Assembly (NCBI RefSeq): GCF_021233435.1
Contig: NZ_CP089469.1
Coordinates: forward strand, 248,001-312,000
Direction of reading: 5' to 3'
From: Halobacterium noricense
Lineage (GTDB): Archaea > Halobacteriota > Halobacteria > Halobacteriales > Halobacteriaceae
DNA: 64,000 nucleotides
Made by a program: the position numbers and the translations under genes. The notes under the pieces were generated by a model. It did no database searches and was not told the DNA's origin. It saw only the letters and a list, made by a program, of their open reading frames with translations. Below are positions 4,723-33,406 of this stretch, piece by piece (within the stretch, counting starts at the first letter, position 1; each line of letters opens with the position of its first letter).

Positions 4723-5775
4723 ATGGCGGACGCACCGGATACCGAACGGCAGGCGGTCGAACCCGATGCGAGAGAGGTCCTTAGCGTGTCCCAGCTGAAC
4801 GACCGGATCGCGTCGGTCGTCCAGGACACGCCTGCTCTCAACGGCGTCCGCTGTATTGGCGAGGTCACCGACCTGCACCAGAACAGTACGGCGCTCTACT
4901 TCACGCTCACCGACGGCGACGCCGAGCTCCCCGGTATGATCTGGGCGAACCGTTACCGGGAGATGGACGCCGACCTCGAGGACGGGACCGAAGTCATCCT
5001 CGAGGGCGATATCGACTACTGGGTCGAAGGTGGGAAAATCGATCTCAAACCGTGGGAGGTGATCGTCGTCGGCAACGGCGACCAAGCGGCTGCCGTCGAG
5101 CGACTGCGAAGCGAACTCGAAGAGCGTGGCTGGTTTGATGACGAGCAGAAACAGCAACCGCCGGCGTTCCCGGAACGAATCGGCGTCGTCACGTCCTTTC
5201 GAGGAGACGCCCGGTACGACATCCAGAACGAGATCCACGGACAGGACCCCACCGTCAACATCCTGGTGAAGGACGCAACCGTCCAAGGATCGAACGCGCC
5301 GACGTCCATCGCGAACGGCATCCACCATCTCGACCGCTCGGAGGACGTCGACGCCATCATCGTCGGCCGTGGCGGTGGGAGCGATTCGAACCTCCAAGCC
5401 TTCAACACCGAACGGGTCGCGGAGGCGATCTTCACCGCGAATACCCCGATGGTCACGGCGATTGGACACACCGATGACCGGCTCATCGCGGATCAGGTGG
5501 CGGACGTCGCGACGATCACGCCGACCGCCGCCGGCGAGTATATCGCGAACTCCCGGAATGACTTTCTCGCCAGCGAGATCGAGCCGCTAGAGCAGCAACT
5601 TGACGCTACGTACGAGACCTTCCAGCAGGAGCACGAACACGAGGCGAAACTGGCAGAGGCTGTCGAGGAGGTGACGGCACCAGAGGGTCTTCCGCCAGTC
5701 TACTACAAGGCCGCTATTGCCGTGCTTCTGGTGCTGTTGCTGCTCATCACTGCGCTCTGGCTGGGGGTGATCTAA
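4723..5775 (+). CDS. xseA: Exodeoxyribonuclease VII large subunit-like, membrane-anchored
   Basis: 350 residues. The N-terminal OB-fold (about 20-115, LSVSQLNDRI ... LYFTLTD) and the catalytic core (about 145-285) match XseA. The core shows IGVVTSFRGDARYDI, then DAIIVGRGGGS and VTAIGHTDDRLIADQVAD. ExoVII degrades single-stranded DNA to oligonucleotides. The C terminus departs from bacterial XseA. Instead of the long helical stalk it has a short helix and then about 22 hydrophobic residues (325-348), a likely membrane anchor. The small subunit gene follows two bases after the stop but is interrupted by an IS, so the complex may be non-functional. Confidence 0.85.
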   Translation: MADAPDTERQAVEPDAREVLSVSQLNDRIASVVQDTPALNGVRCIGEVTDLHQNSTALYFTLTDGDAELPGMIWANRYREMDADLEDGTEVILEGDIDYWVEGGKIDLKPWEVIVVGNGDQAAAVERLRSELEERGWFDDEQKQQPPAFPERIGVVTSFRGDARYDIQNEIHGQDPTVNILVKDATVQGSNAPTSIANGIHHLDRSEDVDAIIVGRGGGSDSNLQAFNTERVAEAIFTANTPMVTAIGHTDDRLIADQVADVATITPTAAGEYIANSRNDFLASEIEPLEQQLDATYETFQQEHEHEAKLAEAVEEVTAPEGLPPVYYKAAIAVLLVLLLLITALWLGVI

Positions 5776-10856: not shown

Positions 10857-11918
10857 ATGGTGGACCTGATAGACGTCGTTCTCGAGGGCTTCAAAGGCGT
10901 CGTCGATTGGTTCATCGGTCTGTTCATGGACGGGCTTCGGTCGGGGTATCAGACGCTGACCGAAGAGATGTTTGGCACTCCGACTCCCCAGACTGACGGG
11001 ACGTTCATTTTCGGAGAACCAAGTAACGCCCCTTGGCCAGCAATTCAGGAAGGGCTCATCGGTGGCGAGATCATGTTGATTTCTCTGCTGCTACTCGTGA
11101 TGAGCGTTCAGGGACGACACACCATCCGCATCTTCAATATCGGGAGTGCGTACGAGGCTCGGAAGACCAAGAAGACTGCCTGGGTCGGTGCGTTCCTGAT
11201 CATTACGTGGTACTGGATCGGAGCGCTCGCACTCTACCTTGTCGACGGGTTCACAATAGCGCTGATGCCGGAGCTGTCCTCGCTGGCCTCTGCTATGCTG
11301 CAGTTCATAACGGGGTCGATTACCAATCCCGGTCTTGGTCTTCTCTTTGCTCTTATCGGAGGAATTTCGATGTGGGCACTGGAGGCGCTGTTCTACATAC
11401 GGCAGATTCTCCTCTACGTCTACCTGTACGGGATGCCCATAGCGTTCGCCGTTGCGTACGGCAATATCCCTGTCCTCTCTGATGTCGCGATGGGGTTCAG
11501 CAAACGGTTCGTCCCATTGGCCATCCTACCCCTGCCTGCGGCGATAGTCCTCAAAGGATACGACCTACTCTACTCTGGAGGGACGTTGACGCCGGGAACA
11601 GCGTTCCTCAAGTACCTCGTCGCGTCTTCACTTCCTCTCGTCGCGCTCTATGTCACGTGGAAGACGTTCAAATACGCGACCCCACTCACGGCGAAGGTTC
11701 TCGGTGGTGCGACGAAAGGAGCGGCCCTCATCGGCGGTGTCGCCGCTGGAGCCTACATCGGCGGCGCCGGCGTCGCGACGACCGCGGCCCGATGGGGACC
11801 GAAGGCCGCAGCGGGACACGCTGTGGCGCAGAAAGCTGCAGCCCGTGGCGCGAACAGCGACGAAGACGGCGGGACGCCGTCCTACCGGCGGACCGAGAAC
11901 GACCCTGGAGGTTACTAA
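10857..11918 (+). CDS. Polytopic membrane protein, VirB6/TrbL-like
   Basis: 353 residues with about six to seven membrane helices (roughly 60-80, 95-120, 125-150, 155-185, 195-230, 245-265). A Gly/Ala-rich C-terminal region (275-330, including GGVAAGAYIGGAG) follows, then a polar tail. A polytopic protein with a Gly/Ala-rich tail just before the VirB3- and VirB4-like genes is the position and shape of VirB6/TrbL channel proteins. No sequence motif proves this. Confidence 0.55.
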   Translation: MVDLIDVVLEGFKGVVDWFIGLFMDGLRSGYQTLTEEMFGTPTPQTDGTFIFGEPSNAPWPAIQEGLIGGEIMLISLLLLVMSVQGRHTIRIFNIGSAYEARKTKKTAWVGAFLIITWYWIGALALYLVDGFTIALMPELSSLASAMLQFITGSITNPGLGLLFALIGGISMWALEALFYIRQILLYVYLYGMPIAFAVAYGNIPVLSDVAMGFSKRFVPLAILPLPAAIVLKGYDLLYSGGTLTPGTAFLKYLVASSLPLVALYVTWKTFKYATPLTAKVLGGATKGAALIGGVAAGAYIGGAGVATTAARWGPKAAAGHAVAQKAAARGANSDEDGGTPSYRRTENDPGGY

Positions 11919-11924
11919 CAATCC

Positions 11925-13046
11925 ATGTCCATCGACGAAGACGCAGCCGCACGGCGCATCATGGACCAGTTCGGTGAGGAGAGTCGCATCCCCTACCTCA
12001 ACATCGAGGAAGGCGACGTCGGCGTCCTGATCGCCTTCCCGATCGTCGGCCTGTTCATCGCCGGCCTCACCGGCATCGAATCACTCGCCCTGCCGTTCGT
12101 CGCAGGTGGCTTCGGGTTCGGCGTCGCGATCGTCTACGTCTCGCCCGACCACCTCAACGCGTGGACGTGGACGAAAGACGTCTATCGCTACGTCAAGCGC
12201 CCCCATATCACGTTCAGCGCCCCGGAGGAGGCCGACAGTAGTACCAACGAGACAGAGCGCAACGAGGGCGGGCTCGCGAACTACACGCCGTTCAAGCCCG
12301 ACGAGCGGACGCAGGACCTCACGAACATCGAACGGGCGTGGCCGGGCGCTGGCGCGATCCAGCGCGCGGACGGCACGATGGAGGCGTTCATCGAGATCGA
12401 CCCCGGGAACATGGACTTCGCGATGTCCGACGACTGGGCACAGCTCCAGGACGCCGGCGAGGAGTTCGCCAACAAGGAACTGGACTCGAAGCTCAAACTC
12501 CACGCGACGACCCGCTCGTTCCCGGTCGAACAGATCACCGAGAACATCGAAGACCGCCTGAACGACGAGGACGTCAAAGAAAACCCGATCTTCCGGGAAC
12601 TCCTCGAAGAGTATCGAGAGACGCGGCCGAAAGAGATGCGCGAACGGGGCATCCAGCAGGTGCGGTACTACATCGGCGTCGAGGTCACCCCACTAGAGGT
12701 CTACGACCGCTTCCGCGATGAGGGGACGCCGGCCGAGAAGCTGACGCAGTTCCCCGTCATCGGGTTCCTGTTCAACACGTTCGTGACCCGCCGTGAGGAC
12801 CTCACCGACGTCGAGCGCCGCGCCCAGATGTTCGAGAAGCTCGACAGCCGGGTCAACGACGTGCGGTCGGAGTTCATCCAGCAGGCGTCGGGCTGGTCCG
12901 CTCGGCGGCTCAGCACGGTCGAACTCTTCGTGTTGAATATGGACTTCTGGAACGGCCGCGAACACGAGTACGACGACGCGGCGCGTGTCGTTCGCGAACA
13001 ACCGATTATCGGCCACTCGCGCCGGGAGGATGCCCACGATGCGTAA
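11925..13046 (+). CDS. VirB3/PrgI-like membrane protein with long soluble domain
   Basis: 373 residues. Two close membrane helices (about 30-50 and 52-72) form a hairpin followed by YVSPDHLNAWTWTKDVYRYV, reminiscent of PrgI/VirB3 proteins. The remaining 270 residues are soluble and resemble the N-terminal half of VirB4/CagE-like proteins (ending STVELFVLNMDFWNGREHEY). The next gene overlaps its end and supplies the VirB4 ATPase. It may therefore represent a membrane module plus part of VirB4 carried on a separate polypeptide, located at the inner face of the membrane. Confidence 0.6.
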   Translation: MSIDEDAAARRIMDQFGEESRIPYLNIEEGDVGVLIAFPIVGLFIAGLTGIESLALPFVAGGFGFGVAIVYVSPDHLNAWTWTKDVYRYVKRPHITFSAPEEADSSTNETERNEGGLANYTPFKPDERTQDLTNIERAWPGAGAIQRADGTMEAFIEIDPGNMDFAMSDDWAQLQDAGEEFANKELDSKLKLHATTRSFPVEQITENIEDRLNDEDVKENPIFRELLEEYRETRPKEMRERGIQQVRYYIGVEVTPLEVYDRFRDEGTPAEKLTQFPVIGFLFNTFVTRREDLTDVERRAQMFEKLDSRVNDVRSEFIQQASGWSARRLSTVELFVLNMDFWNGREHEYDDAARVVREQPIIGHSRREDAHDA

Positions 13047-15264
13047 CCTCGTCCTCCAGACGGGCAGCGGAGCCGTCGGCCAGCTCACGGAGTGGCTCAT
13101 GAACCCAACCTCAGGTGAAGGTGCGGCTCTCTACATTCTGCTCGCGGTACTGGTCGGGATCGGCGGGAAACTCCTCTGGGAGTGGTACGCTGATGACGAC
13201 GAGGAGGAGGTCGAGTTCTCAGACCTCCTGGATGAGGAGACCATCGAACAGGGCGCGGCCGAACGCCAGCTCCTCGACGACATCGCTGAGTCACACAAGA
13301 CGGTGACCGCGCCGGCGGCGATCGAGTGGGAGACGCGCGCGGCTCGGGTCGGCGAGCAGTGGACGACGACGCTGTACATCGCTGACTACCCGGACTACCC
13401 CAACGACGGCTACCTCTCCGAGCTCTTCGAGATGACGGACGTGCAGTTCGATTTGACGGCCCACATCACGCCGAAGAACCAGGAGCGGGCCCGGAACGAA
13501 CTCCAGGACATCGCTGACGACCTCCAGGTGGACGCTGACCTCGAACAGAGCGTGCGGAGTGCCTACCTACAGGAACGCGCCAACGAGGCCGCAGCGACGT
13601 ACAAGGCCGTCGAGAACGGCGCGAATGTCTTCGACCAGGGGATGTTCATCACGGTACGAGCCGACGAAAAGGATGCCCTCCGCGACGCCGTCCAGAAAGT
13701 CAAGAGCGCGCTCCGCGACGACCCGGCGAACCTCACGCCGAAGACGGCGATCTGTCGGCAGGATCTCGCCCTCCAATCCGCCGCGCCCATCGGTGACAAC
13801 GAGTTCGGGCGGACGTCGATTGCGCTCGGCGGCGCCGTCGGTGCGTTACTGTCTTCGCCGCACAACGCAACGATCCTCGAGGAAGGCGGCGTCGAGTTCG
13901 GCATCCACAAGGACAACCAGAGCCCGGTCGTCATCGACCCGTTCGCGCGGGACAACGGCTACGCGATGTTCACCGTCGGCGACACCGGGTCGGGGAAGTC
14001 GTTCAGTTCGAAGCAGAACTTCATCCGGTCGATCGAGCAGAGCAAGGACCGTATCGGCATCATCCTCGAGCCACTGAATAACTGGGCGGGGGTCGCCGAA
14101 GCCCTCGACGCCAAACGCATCACGGTCGGCGGGACGCTCGGCTTGAACCCCTTGGAGATTCGGGAGACGCCCGAGCACGTCCAGCGGGCGATGGGCGAGG
14201 ACGCGAGCCCGTTCAACGAGAAGCTCGACGACGCCATGAGCTTCCTCACCAACTTCTTCGCGCTACGGGGCATCTCACTCGGAGACCGCCGGACGACGCT
14301 CGAACTCGGGCTCAAGCGGGCGTACAAGCGCAACGGCATCACCGACGACATCTCGACGCACGGCAACCCGAGCCCGACGATTCAGGATATGATGGACGTC
14401 TTCGAGGATATGGTCGACGACCCCGAGGAGTTCGTCGTCCGGTCCGACGAGGAGGCGGGGAAGATCAAAGAGGACGCGACGTGGCTCCTTGACCAGCTCC
14501 GCCCCTTCGAGGACGACGGTCGGCACGGCAACCTCGGCCAAGAGTCCGACTTCGATATCCGCGACGAGAAGGTCATCTACCTCGACCTCGCCCAGCAGGA
14601 GGGCAGCGTCGACAGCAGCACGGCGCTGACGATGCAGCTACTCATCTCGCTGGTGTACGAGCGGGCGAAAGTCTCGGAGAAGGAGGTCGTGTTCTACATC
14701 GACGAGGCGCGCTACATCATGCAGGACGCCGCGAGCTTGGCGTTCCTTGAGACGGTGTTCCGCCACCACCGGCACCACGACCTCTCGATCCGGCTGGTCA
14801 CGCAGACTGTCGACGAGTTCTTCGAGCACGCCGAGTCCGAGGCCATTCTGGATCAGTGTGCGGTCAAGCAGTTCCACCGCCTCGACGGGATGGACGAGGA
14901 GTGGGCCGACGAGTTCGGGCTGAACTACGCGCAGATGCGGTTCGTCCAGGACGCCGTGCCGGGCAACGAGGACGCCGGCTTCTCCGAGGCCCTCGTGGGC
15001 GTCGACGGCGAGTGGCGCGGCATTCAGGTCAAAGCGATGCCCAAGGAGAAGCAGGTCATCGACTTCGACCCGACCTCACAGGTCCGGTCCTCACTGCCCG
15101 GCGCCGGCGACGACGCCGTCGATACCGAGATGGAGGAGTTCCAGGAAGAGCTCGAGCATCGAGCAACGAACGGAACGAACGAAACGAGCGAACTGAACGA
15201 GGAATCAGACGCCGTCGAAGCTGAGCCAGACGGCGGGTCAACGGAGGGGACCAACGATGGCTGA
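13039..15264 (+). CDS. VirB4-family conjugation ATPase
   Basis: 741 residues from the ATG at 13039, which overlaps the previous stop. One N-terminal membrane helix (about 30-50) is followed by a VirB4/TraC-type domain and a RecA-like ATPase. Walker A is GDTGSGKS near 314, and Walker B VVFYIDEA sits near 550-557 with a following arginine-rich helix. VirB4 proteins energise assembly of type IV secretion systems and pilus dynamics. The C terminus is acidic and Thr/Asn-rich, without motifs. It overlaps the VirD4-like gene by 8 bp, so translation is coupled. Confidence 0.85.
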   Translation: MRNLVLQTGSGAVGQLTEWLMNPTSGEGAALYILLAVLVGIGGKLLWEWYADDDEEEVEFSDLLDEETIEQGAAERQLLDDIAESHKTVTAPAAIEWETRAARVGEQWTTTLYIADYPDYPNDGYLSELFEMTDVQFDLTAHITPKNQERARNELQDIADDLQVDADLEQSVRSAYLQERANEAAATYKAVENGANVFDQGMFITVRADEKDALRDAVQKVKSALRDDPANLTPKTAICRQDLALQSAAPIGDNEFGRTSIALGGAVGALLSSPHNATILEEGGVEFGIHKDNQSPVVIDPFARDNGYAMFTVGDTGSGKSFSSKQNFIRSIEQSKDRIGIILEPLNNWAGVAEALDAKRITVGGTLGLNPLEIRETPEHVQRAMGEDASPFNEKLDDAMSFLTNFFALRGISLGDRRTTLELGLKRAYKRNGITDDISTHGNPSPTIQDMMDVFEDMVDDPEEFVVRSDEEAGKIKEDATWLLDQLRPFEDDGRHGNLGQESDFDIRDEKVIYLDLAQQEGSVDSSTALTMQLLISLVYERAKVSEKEVVFYIDEARYIMQDAASLAFLETVFRHHRHHDLSIRLVTQTVDEFFEHAESEAILDQCAVKQFHRLDGMDEEWADEFGLNYAQMRFVQDAVPGNEDAGFSEALVGVDGEWRGIQVKAMPKEKQVIDFDPTSQVRSSLPGAGDDAVDTEMEEFQEELEHRATNGTNETSELNEESDAVEAEPDGGSTEGTNDG

Positions 15265-18200
15265 GTACCTGCGCATCACGCCGACATCCGAGCGGCTTGA
15301 CCCGGAGAGTATCTCCCGCGTCCTCGACAGCCTCCACAAACTGACCACGCCCGGCTCGTCGGGCCTCGGGGCGAAGCTGAACCCACTCCACAGTGAGACA
15401 CCACCCCGATTCGAGTTCCTCGCGATCAGTGATGGCCCGGACGACCCGGTAGAGTTCTACTACGGGGCCGATGCCCACCTCGATACGCTTGAGAAGCGCC
15501 TCCGATCCATCTATCCAGCCACGTTCGACATCGAACGCGTCGACGTCGACGTCGCCGCTCGGCTCATTCAGCCAGTCGAGCTCACACCGCAGGAATTCGT
15601 CGACCACTACGAAGCCGGGCGGCTGCAGTACGAGTTTGGCCCGGCAGAACAGTACGAGATCGTCGACGAGGAATCAGGGGACTCCGAGCCAGCCGAAGCG
15701 GATCCCGTTGTCGACGGCGGTACGGCAACCACGAGCGTCCCCGATCATCACGTGACTGTCGGAGACGCAGCCCTCGAACTAGCGCCGCCAGATGCACTTC
15801 CAGACGACGAGGAAGAGCGACGGGCCATCGAGAAGCCGACGATGACACCGGCGGGAACGATTCTGGCTCGCCCGGCACAAGACGCTGTCTCGCCACTCGG
15901 TGTCCGGTGGTGTGGCACCGCGTCGCGGAAGCAGGACTGGATGACCTCGCTGACGCCGTTCACGGCAGAGGAAACGAACGGCGATCTCTCGTCCGTCGAC
16001 GAACCGGGCGCGGCGCTGGCGTCGTTGATCGACCACCTGATGGAGGCGACAGCGCCGACCGCGTTCCAGGTCGTCTTCCAACGGCGCGCCAGCTGGCAGT
16101 CCGATGCGGAGGTGCGGAAAGAGGACCTCGTCGACGGCAGGGATACGTTCTTCCAGGAGGTCGTCGGGTCGTTGCTCGAGGTCGAGGAGCAACGGAGCGA
16201 CCAGGACGACCGGCAGCTCAGCGAGGCCGTCGAGAAGCGCATCGAGTACATCGACGCGAAGAACGCCAAACGGTCGTTCACGGTCAACATCCGGGCCGTC
16301 GGCGTCCCCACCGACGACACTCGCGACGACCTCGATGGCCGGATGGACTCGCTCCTCCCGGTGTTCGACCCGCTGGATGGACCGTTCTACGAGGTCGAGG
16401 GACAACGCCTCCGGGACAGCGGGTTCCGTGAGAAAACGAAGGAGAAGAAGGCACGGGCGGCTCTCCAGCGCCTCCTCAATCGCGAGTTGACGACGGGCCG
16501 GGGGAAGACCCGCTCCGAGCTGGTTCTCTGTGGGACGGAGCTCGCGAACTTCGTCCTCGTCCCCTCCTCCGAACAGTTGACCGTCGAAGGGACGCGGGGG
16601 ACCAGAGCCGAACAGCAGAGTCGGAACCCGCTCCCGTGGCCAAATCCGGATCTGATCCAGCAGTTCCAGGACGGGATGGCCATCGGCTACGCGCTCGACG
16701 AAAACGGCGAGCCACGACCCAACCCGATCCGGATCCCGCCGGACCTGTTGCCAACGCATTACGGGCGGTTCGCGTCGACTGGTGGCGGGAAATCAAAGGC
16801 CATCATCAACGACGCGCTCTCGCTTCGCGAGACGACGGGTGGCCCCGTCGTCCTCGTCGACCCGAAGGGCGACGGAATGTGTGAGAACTACCTGCGCTGC
16901 CACTACGAACGGTTCGGTGGTCTCGACGACGTCTACCACTTCCGCGTCCCGGAGACCATCCCCGCGTTCTCGTTCTTCGACATCCGCCCCGCGCTCGAAG
17001 CGGGCCGCAACCGTGAGGACGCGATTCAAGACAAGGTCGACCACTTCCACGACATCCTTCGGATGATTATGGGTCGCGAGCAGTACGGCCAGGCGTTCGT
17101 CGCGAACGAGATTCTCAGCTACCTGATCAAGGCACTGTTCGACGAGGAGTACGGGAACGACGTGTTCGGGCTGGACGACCTCTTCGCCGCCGCCCTCCGG
17201 ATGCAGCGCGATCAGACGATTCCCCCGGTCTCAGCGGACAATCAGAACATCGAGGAATCGCTGACGCGCCACTTCGCGAAGGACAACCACCAGTTCCAGG
17301 TGTCGATGGACGCCGTCGGAAACCGCCTCGACAAGCTCAAAGAGGACGCGCATCTCCGCCGGATCTTCAGCCACGTCCCCGAGCAGAACGACGCCGGCGA
17401 GTACGTCGACAACCGATTCGACTTCCGCGAGTTCCTCGATGAAGACGCCACCATCATCTTCGACCTCGGCGACCTGCGGCCGGAGGCCCAACGAGCGATC
17501 ACACTGCTGCTGTTGAGCAACCTCTGGGACGCCGTGCAGGTGCGCCGACGCGACGGCCAGACCGACTACGAGAAGCTCACGAATCTCATCATCGAGGAAG
17601 CGGCGCCGGTCGCGTCGACGAAGCTCGTCTCCGAGCAGCTACTGCCGCAGGGCCGGTCGTTCGGCCTGAGTATGGGGCTCGTGATGCAGTTCCCTGAACA
17701 GGTGCGGAACCGGAACGAGCGAGCCTATGACGAGGTGCTGAACAACATCAAGACGAAGCTCATCGGCAACATCTCGATCGAACGCGACCTCGCAGAGTCG
17801 CTTGCCCACGAGGACCTCTCTCCAACCGAACTCCGCAACCGAATCAACACGCTCCCAAGTGGCGAGTGGATTGCACAACTCCCGAGCCCGTCGTTCGGGG
17901 AGACTGGTCCGCCGCCGTTTTCACTGAAACCGCTCCCGATTGCGCCGGGGCATCCAGAAAGCGACCAGCCGCTCACAGAACCCCAGGAAGCCCATTTCGA
18001 GTCCGTGTCCCGGCCACGGATGGTCGAGCGGACACAGGCCCAGTACGGGCTAACAGAGCCGACTGAGTCGAACACTGCTCCGGAAGAGTCTAGCTGGGGG
18101 AGTTCGGGTGCCGAAACGACAGGCTCGGCTGCCGACGCCGACTCAGGAACGGACCCGACGCAATCCGCGTTCATCAGCGAATCGACGACCGAGGACGCGT

Positions 18201-19081
18201 CGACGTCGACTACGCAGCCCGAGACGGACAGCGACCCAGATGCAGACGAGTCAAAGATGAGTCCCCTGTTCGGGCAGGCCACCGAGACGGACGAGGAGTC
18301 AACTGGTGACCAAACATCGGAGCCGGAGAACGGGGCAACGCCCGTCCAGGAAAGTAACGTGCCCGTCCCCGATGACGAACTCCGACAACGCGGGCTCAGC
18401 CGTGACGACGTCCGGTTCCTGAATCGGGTCCTCGACGTGATGAACAGAGAGGACGATGAGTACACGCTGCTGGACAGGATGAGCCAGCTTCGGGACGAAT
18501 ACGACGACCTCCATATGGAGCAGCTCACGGAACAGGACCTCTTGGAAGCGGACTCCGCGGCCGGGCGCAAGTACTACACCGTTCTCCCGGACGGTCGAGA
18601 CCTCCTCGGGAGAGAATTGAAGGCGGGGCCAGGAGCGGGCGATCTCGGCGAGAAAACGCCACACAAGGTTGGCGTCCGGCTCCTCGAGCTCTGGCTCCAG
18701 CAGCGGGATGACGTCGTTCGCGTGGACCCGTACTACGAAACCGACGACGGCACGGTACTGGACGTGGCCGGCTTCGACGAGGACGGCGATCTCGTCTGGA
18801 CCGGCGAAGCAGAGCTCGCGAGTAACAATCGGCACGCCCCGGTCGAGGATTACGACAAACTCAGCGCGGTGGACGCCGACGCGATCTGGGCCTTCAACAA
18901 TCGCGAGACGGCGCTCGACGTCCTAGATAGCCTTGCCGACGCGGATCGGGTCGACGAGCGGGTCAGCGGGCGGGATGCACGGTCGTTCGCGACCATCAGA
19001 GACGCCGTCGACGAGTTCGATGCTTCGGGGCTGACCACCGTTCGGGGCTTCAAAAATCTCGATCGAGAACTCAACCAATGA
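15257..19081 (+). CDS. VirD4/TraG-like coupling ATPase with extra C-terminal domain
   Basis: 1274 residues. An N-terminal domain of about 450 residues resembles the N part of VirB4-like proteins. A RecA-like ATPase follows, with ASTGGGKS near 507, VVLVDPKGDG, IIFDLGDL near 730 and an LIIEEAAPVAS strand near 776. A Ser/Thr/Asp-rich linker (about 890-1040) leads to a separate C-terminal domain (about 1050-1274). In that domain HKVGVRLLELWL, VLDVAGF and WTGEAEL resemble a PD-(D/E)xK nuclease layout. It probably acts as DNA pump or coupling protein. No relaxase gene is recognised nearby, so the extra domain is of interest. It overlaps the primase gene by 4 bp. Confidence 0.75.
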   Translation: MAEYLRITPTSERLDPESISRVLDSLHKLTTPGSSGLGAKLNPLHSETPPRFEFLAISDGPDDPVEFYYGADAHLDTLEKRLRSIYPATFDIERVDVDVAARLIQPVELTPQEFVDHYEAGRLQYEFGPAEQYEIVDEESGDSEPAEADPVVDGGTATTSVPDHHVTVGDAALELAPPDALPDDEEERRAIEKPTMTPAGTILARPAQDAVSPLGVRWCGTASRKQDWMTSLTPFTAEETNGDLSSVDEPGAALASLIDHLMEATAPTAFQVVFQRRASWQSDAEVRKEDLVDGRDTFFQEVVGSLLEVEEQRSDQDDRQLSEAVEKRIEYIDAKNAKRSFTVNIRAVGVPTDDTRDDLDGRMDSLLPVFDPLDGPFYEVEGQRLRDSGFREKTKEKKARAALQRLLNRELTTGRGKTRSELVLCGTELANFVLVPSSEQLTVEGTRGTRAEQQSRNPLPWPNPDLIQQFQDGMAIGYALDENGEPRPNPIRIPPDLLPTHYGRFASTGGGKSKAIINDALSLRETTGGPVVLVDPKGDGMCENYLRCHYERFGGLDDVYHFRVPETIPAFSFFDIRPALEAGRNREDAIQDKVDHFHDILRMIMGREQYGQAFVANEILSYLIKALFDEEYGNDVFGLDDLFAAALRMQRDQTIPPVSADNQNIEESLTRHFAKDNHQFQVSMDAVGNRLDKLKEDAHLRRIFSHVPEQNDAGEYVDNRFDFREFLDEDATIIFDLGDLRPEAQRAITLLLLSNLWDAVQVRRRDGQTDYEKLTNLIIEEAAPVASTKLVSEQLLPQGRSFGLSMGLVMQFPEQVRNRNERAYDEVLNNIKTKLIGNISIERDLAESLAHEDLSPTELRNRINTLPSGEWIAQLPSPSFGETGPPPFSLKPLPIAPGHPESDQPLTEPQEAHFESVSRPRMVERTQAQYGLTEPTESNTAPEESSWGSSGAETTGSAADADSGTDPTQSAFISESTTEDASTSTTQPETDSDPDADESKMSPLFGQATETDEESTGDQTSEPENGATPVQESNVPVPDDELRQRGLSRDDVRFLNRVLDVMNREDDEYTLLDRMSQLRDEYDDLHMEQLTEQDLLEADSAAGRKYYTVLPDGRDLLGRELKAGPGAGDLGEKTPHKVGVRLLELWLQQRDDVVRVDPYYETDDGTVLDVAGFDEDGDLVWTGEAELASNNRHAPVEDYDKLSAVDADAIWAFNNRETALDVLDSLADADRVDERVSGRDARSFATIRDAVDEFDASGLTTVRGFKNLDRELNQ

Positions 19082-27021: not shown

Positions 27022-27630
27022 CTGAGTGCTTGTCTGATTCAGTGGGAGAAGACCCTCGAAAGCCCGCGGCCGCTCGACGTCCCGCGACCGCCGCTGCGCG
27101 CCTCGTGCCTGCGGTGCTTGCGGGGTCGGGGGACGGTCGAGGCGACCTCGCCCTTTCTGAGTCCGCTAGGACTGTTGATGGCCCACCGAGCGACGTAGCC
27201 GGTTGAACAGGTGTGTACGTAGCGGCCCGCCCCGCTCGCCGCTGCCGCCCTCCGCGTCGCTCGCGACCGACCATTCCGGGCGGTCTGCCTGCAGTAGCGG
27301 GCGGACTGCCGGGCTAAAATGGATGTGCCCTCGACGCCAGCGCTTCACCCGTTCGGGTCCTCCGGACCTCGGCTCCGCCGACCGCGACGGACGTGGTTGC
27401 GTCGCGGCGAACGGGGAATGCGCTGGCCGCTCGCTCCGGGCGGGTCGGCGCGCGGTGCTGGTTGGGGCCACCTCATGCAGGCGCGCTCTCGCTCGCGCCC
27501 GGTAGGGCGCTCGCGAAGGCGCGAGCGAGAGCGCGCAGATGGTTCTGTCGGTCGTTGTCGTCGGAAAACCGCGATGTTGGAGCATCGCGGAGTCGGCGCG
27601 TGAGCGCCTTCGGAATCTGGTGTGATTCCA
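27022..27630. other. GC-rich 609-bp non-coding region with strong hairpins
   Basis: Overlapping frames on both strands here look like shadows, rich in Arg and Pro. The region contains a perfect 19-bp inverted repeat, GCGCGCTCTCGCTCGCGCC at 27481-27499 and its complement at 27518-27536 with an 18-bp spacer. A second 8-bp hairpin lies at 27569-27590. It lies just upstream of the OB-fold protein gene. It could be a replication-related site, an attenuator or a structured RNA; the evidence does not decide. Confidence 0.45.
27481..27536. repeat. Perfect 19-bp inverted repeat
   Basis: The arms at 27481-27499 and 27518-27536 are exact complements and very GC-rich. As RNA this would be a stable stem with an 18-nt loop. 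It is followed at 27569-27590 by a second perfect hairpin (CCGCGATG stem). Neither has a downstream T tract of the kind seen in ordinary terminators. Confidence 0.6.
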
Positions 27631-28497
27631 ATGTCTAGTAACAACGCTAGCGGAAAGGTCGTTTCGGTCGATGAACAGGCATTCGAGAAAGCGGGCGGTC
27701 AGGCCGTCGATGAAGACGGCTTCCCGGTCGTCGACGAGACGCCGGAGTTCGAGGCCGCGGTCGAGCAGGAGACGCAGGCGAAGGTGGATGCGAACCACCC
27801 GGACGGGATCGCGGACACGAGCGAGGACCGGATTCACGGTGTCACCCTCGAACAGGAGGAGCGCATTCGGGCGCGGGAAGCCGAACTGGAGCGCATCAGT
27901 GCCCAGGCCGAGCTCGGAACGCAGGAGGGTCGCGAGCAGCGCACGCGAGAGGTCGTCAGCGAGCAGTGTGGTCGTGACGAGCCGGCGCCGGCGGAGCGCA
28001 CGGATCCCCGAGAGATGCTGACGCAAGAGGAGCTCGCGGCGGTCAACGAGCAGGCGATGCGGATCAGCGACGAAGTGCAGGGCGGCTGGTCAAGATCGGT
28101 CGTCGCGAAGCAGCTGGCCGAGAAGGTGCAGCGCGGGCGGGACGTCACGAAGGCGGTGCTGGAAACCCTCGAGGAGCTGAAGGCGGCGCCGGGGGCAATC
28201 GTGCCCATCGCGGACGTGCCGGACGTCCCGGTCGGCGAGGTGACGGTCGAAGGCGAGATAATCGAACTCTGGTCTCCCAGTAGTAGCGCAATTCAACAAG
28301 TCGGGCTCATCGAAGACGAAAGCGGGCGAACGAAATTCACGGTCTGGGAGAAGAGCGGGAAGACGGTGGTTCGAGAAGGGCAGACAGTCAGGTTCAGAGC
28401 GGTCAAGAAAAGTTGGTACCAAGGGCGATGCAGTCTCGCGATCACTGGCTGGTCGCGGATCGAGTTCCCGGAGCGCGGTCGGTGGTGGGACGAATAG
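27631..28497 (+). CDS. OB-fold single-strand DNA-binding (RPA-like) protein
   Basis: 288 residues from the ATG at 27631. The N-terminal two thirds are helical and highly charged (TLEQEERIRAREAELERISA), giving coiled-coil character. The C-terminal part (about 205-288) is an OB-fold of the RPA/tRNA-anticodon type: VTVEGEIIELWSPSS, QQVGLIEDESGRTKFTVWEKS and GQTVRFRAVKK. Such proteins bind single-stranded DNA. Location on an element that also carries a primase pair suggests replication or repair. Confidence 0.7.
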   Translation: MSSNNASGKVVSVDEQAFEKAGGQAVDEDGFPVVDETPEFEAAVEQETQAKVDANHPDGIADTSEDRIHGVTLEQEERIRAREAELERISAQAELGTQEGREQRTREVVSEQCGRDEPAPAERTDPREMLTQEELAAVNEQAMRISDEVQGGWSRSVVAKQLAEKVQRGRDVTKAVLETLEELKAAPGAIVPIADVPDVPVGEVTVEGEIIELWSPSSSAIQQVGLIEDESGRTKFTVWEKSGKTVVREGQTVRFRAVKKSWYQGRCSLAITGWSRIEFPERGRWWDE

Positions 28498-30442: not shown

Positions 30443-30937
30443 TCATCCGTGCTGGAGCATTTCAACCGCGAGGTCGTAGGCGTATTTCAAATCCTCGGGC
30501 ACTTCCATCGGCACTCCCGGTGCATTGTTGGGATCCCATCCCCAGGAGTAGAACTCGACGGCCTGATCGATGGCCTCGGTGGTTTGCTGTTCGACGCCAG
30601 CATTCCAGTTCGAGTTCAGTTGAATCCCTCGATTAGACCGTTGGAGAGGCGGAGCCGTTCCAAACCCCTTGGCATTTTCCCCGCCCCACTCCGGCCAATT
30701 CCGGGGCAGTCGAGCAAACACCTCGACCTCGTCGTGGGTGTACTCTAACTCGTGCCCGTTCGTGTCCTCGTTGTACTTGCCGAGTCTGAACATCCCGAGA
30801 CTGACCACTACGAAGTTCCCGACCCCGACCACGACCTCGATTTCCTGAAGGGGATGTGCATTTCGAAAGCTACCGAGCCCTTCCTGAAGCGGATCGGGGA
30901 GATCCCCTTCGTCGATGTCGTCTATCGTTACTGCCAC
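30443..30937 (-). CDS. E2-like protein (Prok-E2 family E type), cysteine-free
   Basis: 164 residues with the order seen in prokaryotic E2 family proteins next to multiubiquitin genes. It has a beta meander (LQEIEVVVGVGNFVVVSLGMF), F-A-R-L-P-R-N-W-P, then W-G-G-E-N and a C-terminal helix. It lies between the Ub-like gene (10-bp overlap) and the E1-JAB gene (22 bp downstream). No cysteine occurs anywhere in the sequence, so a thioester with a Ub-like protein is impossible as read. It may act as a scaffold or adaptor. Family assignment is from pattern and context. Confidence 0.6.
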   Translation of the reverse strand: MAVTIDDIDEGDLPDPLQEGLGSFRNAHPLQEIEVVVGVGNFVVVSLGMFRLGKYNEDTNGHELEYTHDEVEVFARLPRNWPEWGGENAKGFGTAPPLQRSNRGIQLNSNWNAGVEQQTTEAIDQAVEFYSWGWDPNNAPGVPMEVPEDLKYAYDLAVEMLQHG

Positions 30938-31536
30938 ACAGGACCACCCCCCTTGTCTCGAACCGCCTCGAACTCGTCGAAGTCGTCCAGAGGGACGTCT
31001 TGTTCGTTGTCCGGGTACCGAGCGTCGGCTTCCTCGTCTACCTCTGACGTATATGCCTCGATCGAGTACTCGGAGGCATCGTCGGGGTCGACAGAGTCTT
31101 CGATTAGTTCACCCGCCTTGACTGTTCTCGAGTCATAGAGTAGCGGGATACCGTTGACGCGGGCGAACCACTTGGACTGCTCGACCTGGATGTCTTCGAC
31201 GTAGTCCTCGACGGCTTCGAGGGCCACTTGGTACTCCTCGAACTCCTCTGTGAGACCATTGGCCTGGTTCGAAATATTGTCGGCCTTGGCTTGGAGGAAC
31301 TCGATCTGCGCAGGCGCAGCCGCGAGTTCAGTCACGTTGTCGGTGTCCTGTGCGTCGTCGACAGCCTCCTCGATCACGTCGAGGATATCCTCGATCTCTT
31401 CAACATCAGCAGCGAAAGTATCGTTGATGCGGTCCTCGATCGGGTCGAGCTTCTCTTTTGCTGTGTCGATTGCGCTCTCGAGCGGCTCGTAATTATGCGT
31501 CGGTTCGTCGTCGGAAGAGTCGTTAGCGTTTGTCAT
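30928..31536 (-). CDS. Coiled-coil plus ubiquitin-like (multiubiquitin-type) protein
   Basis: 202 residues. Residues about 15-120 are a long acidic helix with strong coiled-coil tendency. Residues about 125-198 read as a ubiquitin-like fold: FARVNGIPLLYDSRTVKAGE, then EYSIEAYTSE, then VPLDDFDEFEAVRDKGGG. The chain ends GGG followed by PVWQ. A tail after Gly-Gly is what a JAB peptidase removes to expose the C terminus for E1 activation. It is first in the operon and its stop overlaps the E2-like start. Known multiubiquitin proteins usually carry repeated Ub-like domains; here there is one. Confidence 0.65.
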   Translation of the reverse strand: MTNANDSSDDEPTHNYEPLESAIDTAKEKLDPIEDRINDTFAADVEEIEDILDVIEEAVDDAQDTDNVTELAAAPAQIEFLQAKADNISNQANGLTEEFEEYQVALEAVEDYVEDIQVEQSKWFARVNGIPLLYDSRTVKAGELIEDSVDPDDASEYSIEAYTSEVDEEADARYPDNEQDVPLDDFDEFEAVRDKGGGPVWQ

Positions 31537-31827: not shown

Positions 31828-32967
31828 ATGACTGAGGACATACTCACGGACATCAAACAGGAGTTGGAAAGTGGCGGAAACTGGCCACTAGAAGCGGACG
31901 AACATACGATTTCGAAAAACCCTTTCTCTGAAACCTGGCCCGACAACCGGTTATTCACCGGATATGAGGACGAACTTCGCGAATTACAGAAGAACATACA
32001 ACGAAATGTCAATACCTTCGTGACTGGCCCCTTCGGAACGGGAAAAACAATACTGTGCCGGGTGATGTACAATCTTCTCGCCGACATCGAGGGTTTTCAC
32101 CCCGCCTTCATCCAGGTCCAGAAAGGCCGCTACAGCAAGGCCATGGCGAAGAATATTCTCCGGGAGTTGAACGAGGATGTCGACTCGTCAGCTAGTCAAA
32201 GTGAGCTGTATGACCAAATAATGGAGGTATTGGAGGAGCGCTATCAGAGTGGCACCCGAACCGTGCTGTTCTTCGACGAAATCATAGCGGGTAGTGAGGG
32301 AACGCTTCGTCAGATACTCCACCTTCAACGGGACGTCGACGATTGGGAGCCAGTGATGATTTTCAATGGAACTACCTATATGATGGACCGCATTCATGCG
32401 AAAATCGAACCTCTCTCAGATCGAATTGGTGACGAAATCCGTCTCACGGGATTGGATGCGGAAAGTACGATTGATTTGGTGAATAAACGGCTTCGATACT
32501 ACTGTACCCAGAGCCAATGGAACAGCGGTGGCGGTTGTTCACACGACGACGGCGATGTCGCTCCCTTCACTCCAGATAGTATAGAACTTGTACATCAAGA
32601 CGTCACCCCGTATCCTCGCCACCTCTGCCGGGAGTTCAATACGATACTCGAGAGAGCTGCAGAAGAGCAAGTTGAGACTATTGATTTTGACTTTACCAAC
32701 GACATCTTGGCAGAATCGGCCAAAGAAAAAGTTGGCTCATTATCCGATGGCGGGGCTCTCGATATATTAGATTACCTTACCGAACACGGTCAGAGTAGCA
32801 TCAACGCTCTGTCTGAAGGACTTGGGGTAAGCTCCTACAATGTTGAGGAAGACCTTGATATGCTCGAAAAGGAGGGATTGGTTCGTGCTACCGAGGTCGG
32901 ACGAGGGATCCGCTATAAACTGACTGAGCAGGCGCGGAAAGAACTTAGCGACCGCAGGAAAGCCTAG
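31828..32967 (+). CDS. AAA-type ATPase with C-terminal winged helix (Orc1/Cdc6-like layout)
   Basis: 379 residues. Walker A GPFGTGKT (about 68-75), Walker B VLFFDEI (about 150) and a sensor-type IFNGTTY give an AAA ATPase. A winged helix follows near the end (ALDILDYLTEHGQSS, then NVEEDLDMLEKEGLVRATE). This domain order resembles Orc1/Cdc6 initiators and regulatory ATPases of the ExeA type. It diverges from the Ub-like operon across a 291-bp promoter region, so the two may share regulation. The 32969 gene follows one base after its stop. Confidence 0.65.
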   Translation: MTEDILTDIKQELESGGNWPLEADEHTISKNPFSETWPDNRLFTGYEDELRELQKNIQRNVNTFVTGPFGTGKTILCRVMYNLLADIEGFHPAFIQVQKGRYSKAMAKNILRELNEDVDSSASQSELYDQIMEVLEERYQSGTRTVLFFDEIIAGSEGTLRQILHLQRDVDDWEPVMIFNGTTYMMDRIHAKIEPLSDRIGDEIRLTGLDAESTIDLVNKRLRYYCTQSQWNSGGGCSHDDGDVAPFTPDSIELVHQDVTPYPRHLCREFNTILERAAEEQVETIDFDFTNDILAESAKEKVGSLSDGGALDILDYLTEHGQSSINALSEGLGVSSYNVEEDLDMLEKEGLVRATEVGRGIRYKLTEQARKELSDRRKA

Positions 32968-32968
32968 A

Positions 32969-33406
32969 ATGACGAACACCTCGAAATCTGAACTGGCACG
33001 ACTACTTGGGGATGAGGAACTCGGGGAGCAGGCGTATCGCCTGAGTATCCTCAGCCGATGGCCCAGTCTTAGAGTCCTTGACTTTCTCTTCACTCAGGGA
33101 CGTTCGACAACCGGTGAAATTGCCCGTGGGGTGAATATGGATATGCGTGAGATTCGTGATACGGTTGATTCACTCTCGGAGATTGGAGTCCTAAGGGAAG
33201 TCGACGATGGTGACACTATTTACTGGCTCCCGGCGAGCGAAGAGTTCTTGATTTCAGTCGAGAATCAGGATGGTCTCGAACTCAAACTAGAGACAGAGTC
33301 GTCTGATTCGGTCGTTCCCAAAAACAACGAAAAGACTGGCTCGCAGAGCGGGCTTTTTGCGAGCTTAGGAGCTCGCATAGACCGATTCATCGATTCTCTC
33401 CGGTAG
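32969..33406 (+). CDS. Winged-helix regulator downstream of the AAA ATPase
   Basis: 145 residues. Residues about 30-80 form a wHTH (RVLDFLFTQGRSTTGEIARG, then REIRDTVDSLSEIGVLREV). The acidic tail (SSDSVVPKNNEKTGSQ) ends in a basic amphipathic helix, possibly a dimerisation or membrane-contact segment. It is co-transcribed with the ATPase, whose C terminus also has a wing, suggesting a two-component DNA-binding unit. Target unknown. Confidence 0.6.
   Translation: MTNTSKSELARLLGDEELGEQAYRLSILSRWPSLRVLDFLFTQGRSTTGEIARGVNMDMREIRDTVDSLSEIGVLREVDDGDTIYWLPASEEFLISVENQDGLELKLETESSDSVVPKNNEKTGSQSGLFASLGARIDRFIDSLR

Follow-up and report, generated by a model that had tools for sequence, protein, structure and literature searches.

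The window is a stretch of 64,000 nucleotides from contig 2 of a haloarchaeal genome 3.3 Mb in size. It carries a three-gene operon in which a ubiquitin-like protein (Ubl) with a coiled coil is followed by an E2-like protein and then by a JAB–E1 fusion (Table 1). The E2-like open reading frame (ORF) is intact and overlaps the Ubl gene by 10 bases at its 5′ end and the E1 gene by 23 bases at its 3′ end, which argues against a frameshift; over the same gene, the other two frames of that strand contain 6 and 3 stops. Given these overlaps, the three genes probably form one transcription unit. The genome harbors a second copy of the operon at C1:312648 (locus L034).

Table 1. Features of the operon and its divergent neighbor, with positions in the window.
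Feature	Position	Strand	Remarks
Ubl, 202 aa: N-terminal coiled coil and C-terminal beta-grasp-like domain	30928..31536	-	First gene of the operon
E2/UBC-fold protein (predicted), 164 aa, 0 Cys	30443..30937	-	GTG start; FYSWGW with Ser131 invariant and Trp134 nearly so
TCC codon of Ser131, proposed acyl acceptor	30545..30547	-	Residue 131 of the frame starting at 30937
JAB (JAMM peptidase) plus E1/ThiF-like adenylation domain, 604 aa	28651..30465	-	Pfam and PDB profile match
AAA ATPase with C-terminal winged helix, divergent neighbor	31828..32967	+	Possible regulator; candidate member of the system

The AAA ATPase is accompanied by a second winged-helix gene (the pair spans 31828-33406), and both are possible regulators; inspection by eye of 17 other loci revealed no evident AAA ATPase beside the operon. 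On the opposite flank, the gene at 27622-28497 has no Pfam match at 1e-5, and in locus L029 the corresponding side of the operon is occupied by a similar gene. Farther away, the ORF at 4723-5775 resembles the large subunit of Exonuclease VII (Pfam E 1.8e-51) and has a hydrophobic C-terminal stretch. Large ORFs at 10857-19081 appear by eye to encode a membrane protein together with ATPases of conjugation or secretion, which suggests that this region could be an integrated element or a plasmid; one of them, at 12985-15264, has no Pfam match at 1e-5.

The preliminary description of this DNA had drawn attention to an E2-like product without cysteine. A direct count confirms zero cysteines in all 164 residues, so that the catalytic cysteine of canonical E2/UBC enzymes is absent. 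The bare count is unremarkable: haloarchaeal proteins are poor in cysteine, and at the cysteine frequency of the window (0.0098, from 33 acidic ORFs) the chance of finding none in 164 residues is about 0.20. Three of the ten window ORFs of 120-220 aa likewise have none. The 57 codons in frame upstream of the start, as far as the last stop, do include cysteine codons, and a cysteine in a missed upstream extension was considered and rejected. These codons are Ubl gene sequence in another reading frame, and the E2 genes of relatives start at about the same place, which together make an extension unlikely.

Sampling of haloarchaeal genomes identified the E1 in 16 of 391, at 17 places (E 1e-25). 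The E2-like gene lies directly upstream of the E1 in all 17 loci, and a Ubl ORF is listed in 16 of them, locus L031 being the exception. A profile of the E2-like family matched 17 of 381 genomes, 15 of which are among the 16 with the E1; in the sixteenth (G383) the E2 adjoins its E1. The two extra genomes are G230, which encodes a different Ubl–E2 fusion, and G156, whose weak match was discounted. Searching with the single E2-like sequence recovered just 4 of 391 genomes, one of which (G304, with internal stops) looks false, and this low recovery points to a very divergent family. A scan of genome contigs with the E2-like sequence returned no relatives. Scans of viral contigs with the E1 and with the E1 alignment were equally empty, and phage records gave no match to the E1; a bacterial E2 detected one partial locus of bacterial type among the viral contigs.

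Five genomes from four genera and three families carry near-identical operons (L024, L025, L026, L027, and L028) with related upstream genes, the same downstream gene in four of the five, and in some cases a location on named plasmids. Near-identity across genera and the presence on plasmids suggest recent transfer. A second type of haloarchaeal locus encodes a Ubl–E2 fusion (L113, 2289-3434; L092, 1376-2359). The L113 fusion has an LSWH motif and matches Prok-E2_E, and the E2 end of L092 looks frameshifted.

We aligned 28 E2-like proteins (15 haloarchaeal, one from Thermoplasmata, and 12 bacterial). In each of three MAFFT modes, Ser131 was the sole invariant column, occupied by serine in all 28. 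Within the 15 family members of alignment A2, Ser131 is again the only invariant residue, followed by the nearly invariant Leu-24, Gly-48, and Trp-134; identity between the window protein and its relatives is 17-29%. As near-copies, L026 and L027 were omitted from alignments A1-A3, and L028 was counted once with L026; the L092 E2 was left out for its apparently frameshifted end, and L114 as unlikely (weak match, open frame of 612 residues). The haloarchaeal motif around the serine reads [WYF]-S-x-x-[WF], with Gly, Asn, Arg, Lys, or Gln at the second position past the serine. None of the 15 haloarchaeal rows has a histidine there, whereas all 12 bacterial Prok-E2_E rows do. The 12 bacterial proteins contain a W-S-R-H motif in which Ser, Arg, and His are invariant, and they have no conserved cysteine.

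Among 16 distinct haloarchaeal E2-like proteins, seven contain no cysteine at all; the other nine have one to three each, none within six residues of the serine, and no cysteine is conserved among the relatives. The preliminary description had left two cases, a cysteine lost across the clade or only in this gene, and the alignment finds the lack to be family-wide, which is why the missing cysteine of the window protein matters. What goes beyond chance is thus the combination of no family-conserved cysteine and one invariant serine. The serine is encoded by AGY in 13 of the 16 haloarchaeal genes and by TCN in the remaining three, and by TCN in all 12 bacterial Prok-E2_E rows. No single base change links AGY and TCN, indicating that the serine itself has been retained across the codon split. 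Of 44 distinct relatives in a broader collection, picked out by profile or by operon position, 42 carry the serine as WSRH, FSWH, LSWH, [LIV]SRR[SN], or [WYF]SxxW; this pattern was devised after the motifs had been seen, so the 42 of 44 is descriptive, and the 28-row alignments are the test. The two relatives without such a serine are L054 (Crossiella) and L087 (Rhodococcus).

The window E2-like protein matches no family in Pfam, NCBIfam, or PADLOC, PF14462 (Prok-E2_E) at the Pfam cut-off included, and a PDB sequence search produced chance matches only. PF14462 is weakly reached by two of the 15 family members (best E 0.063). Profile comparison of archaeal alignment A2 with bacterial Prok-E2_E gave a probability of 90.2 and an E-value of 1.5e-6 over the beta-meander only, the serine falling outside the matched part. 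A 13-row set (A8) matched bacterial Prok-E2_E over its full length at E 3.8e-29 with FYSWGW paired to WSRH, a comparison that is partly circular because A8 itself contains Prok-E2_E rows. Bridging proteins link the two families; L046, for one, matches both the archaeal profile (1.1e-4) and PF14462, the latter above its cut-off.

Structure prediction gave a compatible picture. The AlphaFold2 model built from three archaeal rows has a mean pLDDT of 61, and its best folds are E2, UEV, and RWD with Z-scores up to 6.4. With 13 rows the mean pLDDT rises to 70, with values below 50 at residues 133-141 in the loop after Ser131. For the Bub pathways (Ye et al. 2026), Citrobacter BubB and BubCD have solved structures (PDB 9ea4, 9ea5, 9eae, and 9eav). 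BubB chain 9eae_C is the best fold for the 13-row model (Z 10.0, rmsd 3.1, 123 residues aligned), to be read with the same caution on circularity as the input alignment included bacterial rows; a UEV domain comes next at Z 5.8. Foldseek also ranked 9eae_C first for this model (E 0.028, probability 0.99), and neither the archaeal-only nor the 13-row model had a Foldseek match at E 0.001 or better. The placement in Prok-E2 family E suggested in the preliminary description is hence right only in a distant sense: profiles and predicted fold provide the link, and the window protein itself has no PF14462 match. We file it as Bub-like rather than as a member of Prok-E2_E, because two defining features of Prok-E2_E, a score above the Pfam cut-off and a His two residues past the serine, are not found in it, although the invariant serine of W-S-R-H is present.

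In the JAB–E1 fusion, Pfam ThiF covers residues 264-437 (E 2.2e-24) and Prok-JAB residues 118-162 (E 5.3e-5, just below the cut-off). Citrobacter BubCD is the closest PDB match of the E1 family profile A1 (E 1.8e-28), spanning both the JAB and the adenylation domains; the next family follows at E 2.5e-15. A glycine loop, D-x-D, N-x-N-R, and one lysine are invariant in the E1 family, and we take these to be the ATP site, as in ThiF and MoeB. The cysteine columns occupied in at least 10 of the 15 E1 rows are limited to C375 and the zinc-like C434, C437, C523, and C527. C375, in a D-C-D of the adenylation domain, is invariant in all 15 family E1s and lies outside the zinc-like four. With the UbaA of the same genome (L124) as control, none of the 15 family rows has a conserved crossover-loop cysteine that aligns with the P-D-C loop cysteine of UbaA, which is presumably the catalytic one. 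The E1 too would thus be without the usual thioester site.

Ser469 of the E1, which does not vary among the 15 family rows, was examined as a substitute for the UBA5/UbaA catalytic cysteine and rejected. The UbaA cysteine lies upstream of this motif, and the 16 non-family rows have Ala (10) or Ser (6) at the position; with Ala so frequent outside the family, Ser469 is not put forward as a family-wide acyl site.

The JAB motif of the window protein, residues 141-154, reads HTHPGGKAAPNEFD, with an Asn at a position that is Ser in 14 of 14 relatives. Four loci forming one E1 clade (L031, L033, L034, and L038) have the second metal-binding His of JAB replaced by Gln, giving HTQP for HTHP, and the Ubls read for three of these four loci retain a tail past GG. 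Judged by these residues, the JAB peptidase of the HTQP clade may be dead or altered.

In a tree of 33 E1 domains, the haloarchaeal rows and the Thermoplasmata row group together (93/90), and 11 bacterial Bub-type rows are separate from this archaeal group (98/96). The haloarchaeal rows by themselves occupy one side of a branch with a support of only 43/15. Two actinobacterial rows sit on a long branch beside the archaeal group (98/97), and the second haloarchaeal type (L092 and L113) is placed elsewhere. The actinobacterial operons with an E1 adjoining the archaeal group are L087 and L093, and the short E2-like protein of L087 has no Ser motif.

The window Ubl ends in KGGGPVWQ and aligns with 12 haloarchaeal counterparts (alignment A3, from which L031 and L035 are absent). 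In all 13 family members the C-terminus consists of a Gly followed by two to five residues. With an E-value limit of 1, four of the 13 match Pfam Multi_ubiq (PF14452), the best of them at 1.3e-7; the window Ubl is not one of the four. Comparison of the Ubl profile with six bacterial multiubiquitin proteins gave a probability of 66 and an E-value of 5.4e-5, and a PDB sequence search returned chance matches, mostly to coiled coils.

Taken together, the operon probably encodes a divergent archaeal, Bub-like Ubl conjugation pathway in which the E2 cysteine would be replaced by Ser131, to which the Ubl would be bound as an oxyester. Trimming of the short tail past the C-terminal glycine of the Ubl would fall to the JAB domain, and the E1 domain, judging by its retained ATP-site residues, would adenylate that glycine. 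The Ubl would then pass to the cysteine-free E2-like protein, accepted as an oxyester by Ser131 at the usual place of the cysteine, and from there to an amine of the target, from which JAB could remove it. The direct basis of this reading is the residues, the predicted fold, and the gene order, from which we infer every reaction. Counting against this reading are the absence of the bacterial Ser-Arg-His histidine, the deviant Asn of the window JAB, the metal His missing from four relatives, the two of 44 relatives without such a serine, the archaeal-only profile match that stops short of the serine, and the poor modelling of the loop around it. The preliminary description had proposed non-thioester transfer, and this is the best reading of a family without a conserved cysteine. 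It had also suggested a clade in which activation is done by the E1 alone; the clade stands, its lack of cysteine being family-wide and shared with bacterial Prok-E2_E, but activation by an E1 cysteine alone is unsupported because the crossover loop has no conserved one.

The same description had offered a scaffold as a second possibility. The E2-like protein would then be a catalytically dead, UEV/RWD-like module that binds the Ubl and positions the adenylate or the target, with a lysine attacking the Ubl-adenylate directly. Iyer et al. 2006 (PMC1779556), in its account of type 6e systems, judged their cysteine-free E2 to be inactive and Ubl-binding; the next-best folds of our E2 models include UEV and RWD domains, and the haloarchaeal proteins do not have the bacterial motif His. 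A scaffold gives no ready reason, however, for a lone serine that is invariant in 28 proteins from archaea and bacteria while the rest has diverged to about 20% identity, and it likewise leaves the retention of Ser across AGY and TCN codons unaccounted for. As Ser131 is the sole invariant residue and aligns with the WSRH serine, we regard a pure scaffold as less likely.

Alternatively, what the pathway activates or carries may not be a Ubl destined for proteins; it could serve sulfur transfer or the attachment of a small molecule or lipid, and the E2-like protein would then act as an acyl carrier. E1/ThiF enzymes also work in sulfur transfer and cofactor pathways. The JAB fusion and the Ubl–E2–E1 order match operons interpreted as protein conjugation, however, and by eye no sulfur-metabolism gene adjoins the operon in the loci listed, making this explanation quite improbable. 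Loss of the cysteine from this one gene through mutation or sequencing error has almost nothing in its favor, given the intact frame, the complete lack of cysteine in seven of the 16 distinct haloarchaeal proteins, and the absence of a conserved one throughout the family, bacterial members included.

With serine as the proposed acceptor, the analysis can be extended to a broader view that we hold tentatively: haloarchaea and at least one member of Thermoplasmata may run Ubl transfer with no cysteine chemistry at all, through a thioester-free E1 and E2 and a Ser-x-x-Trp site without His, encoded by an operon that is frequently plasmid-borne and passes from genus to genus. The conserved residue of the E2-like family is a serine in archaea as in bacteria, which turns a cysteine-less oddity into a testable rule. 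If the serine works as proposed, oxyester-based Ubl transfer spans two domains of life, beyond bacteria, and the archaeal branch would show what such an active site can do without a neighboring histidine. With the genetic tools for haloarchaea, this can be tested alongside the cysteine-based SAMP/UbaA system that the cell also has.

Among known systems, Bil (BilA-D) and Cap2 of CBASS draw on the same prokaryotic toolkit of Ubl, E1, E2, and JAB, and Cap2 appears in the fold list of the 13-row E2 model at Z 5.6. BilB differs from the window E2 in using a catalytic cysteine, Cys138. Operons of this kind with a cysteine-free E2 were already known: type 6e, as described by Iyer, Burroughs and Aravind in 2006 (PMC1779556), comprises bacterial Ubl repeats, a cysteine-less E2/RWD-like protein, and a JAB–E1. 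It shares with the window operon the N-terminal JAB of the E1, the Ubl gene, and the cysteine-less E2-like gene between them. It differs in that row 6e of Table 1 of that paper lists bacteria only, and its metal-binding protein was not found at the window operon. What is new, as far as searched, is an archaeal branch with a coiled-coil Ubl, a Ser-x-x-Trp site, no DUF6527, and a window E2 without a Pfam match, its Ubl likewise having no meaningful one; no description of this branch was found in the open-licence literature. The Pfam families PF14462 (Prok-E2_E) and PF14452 (Multi_ubiq) are distant homologs by profile and fold, neither detecting the window proteins, and the archaeal SxxW stands in place of the Prok-E2_E SRH.

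Bacterial operons with a related E1 contain a multiubiquitin and an E2/UBC protein (Pfam Prok-E2_E), often accompanied by DUF6527. According to PMC13373217, protection against phage is so far undemonstrated for Bub operons. Instead of the tandem Ubl repeats of Bub, the archaeal operon encodes a single Ubl that bears an N-terminal coiled coil. The archaeal E2 further differs from Bub in having no His two residues past the serine, the DUF6527 companion was found in none of the 17 haloarchaeal genomes searched for it, and the HTH and ImmA/IrrE pair of Bub was not seen beside the archaeal operon. Bub and the window operon have the same gene order of Ubl, E2, and E1, the JAB–E1 fusion being nearest to BubCD and the E2 model nearest to BubB. 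BubB is itself a Prok-E2_E protein with a WSRH serine, to which Ser131 aligns through the Prok-E2_E family. Ubl–serine oxyester intermediates are reportedly formed in Bub, in the 2026 work of Ye and colleagues.
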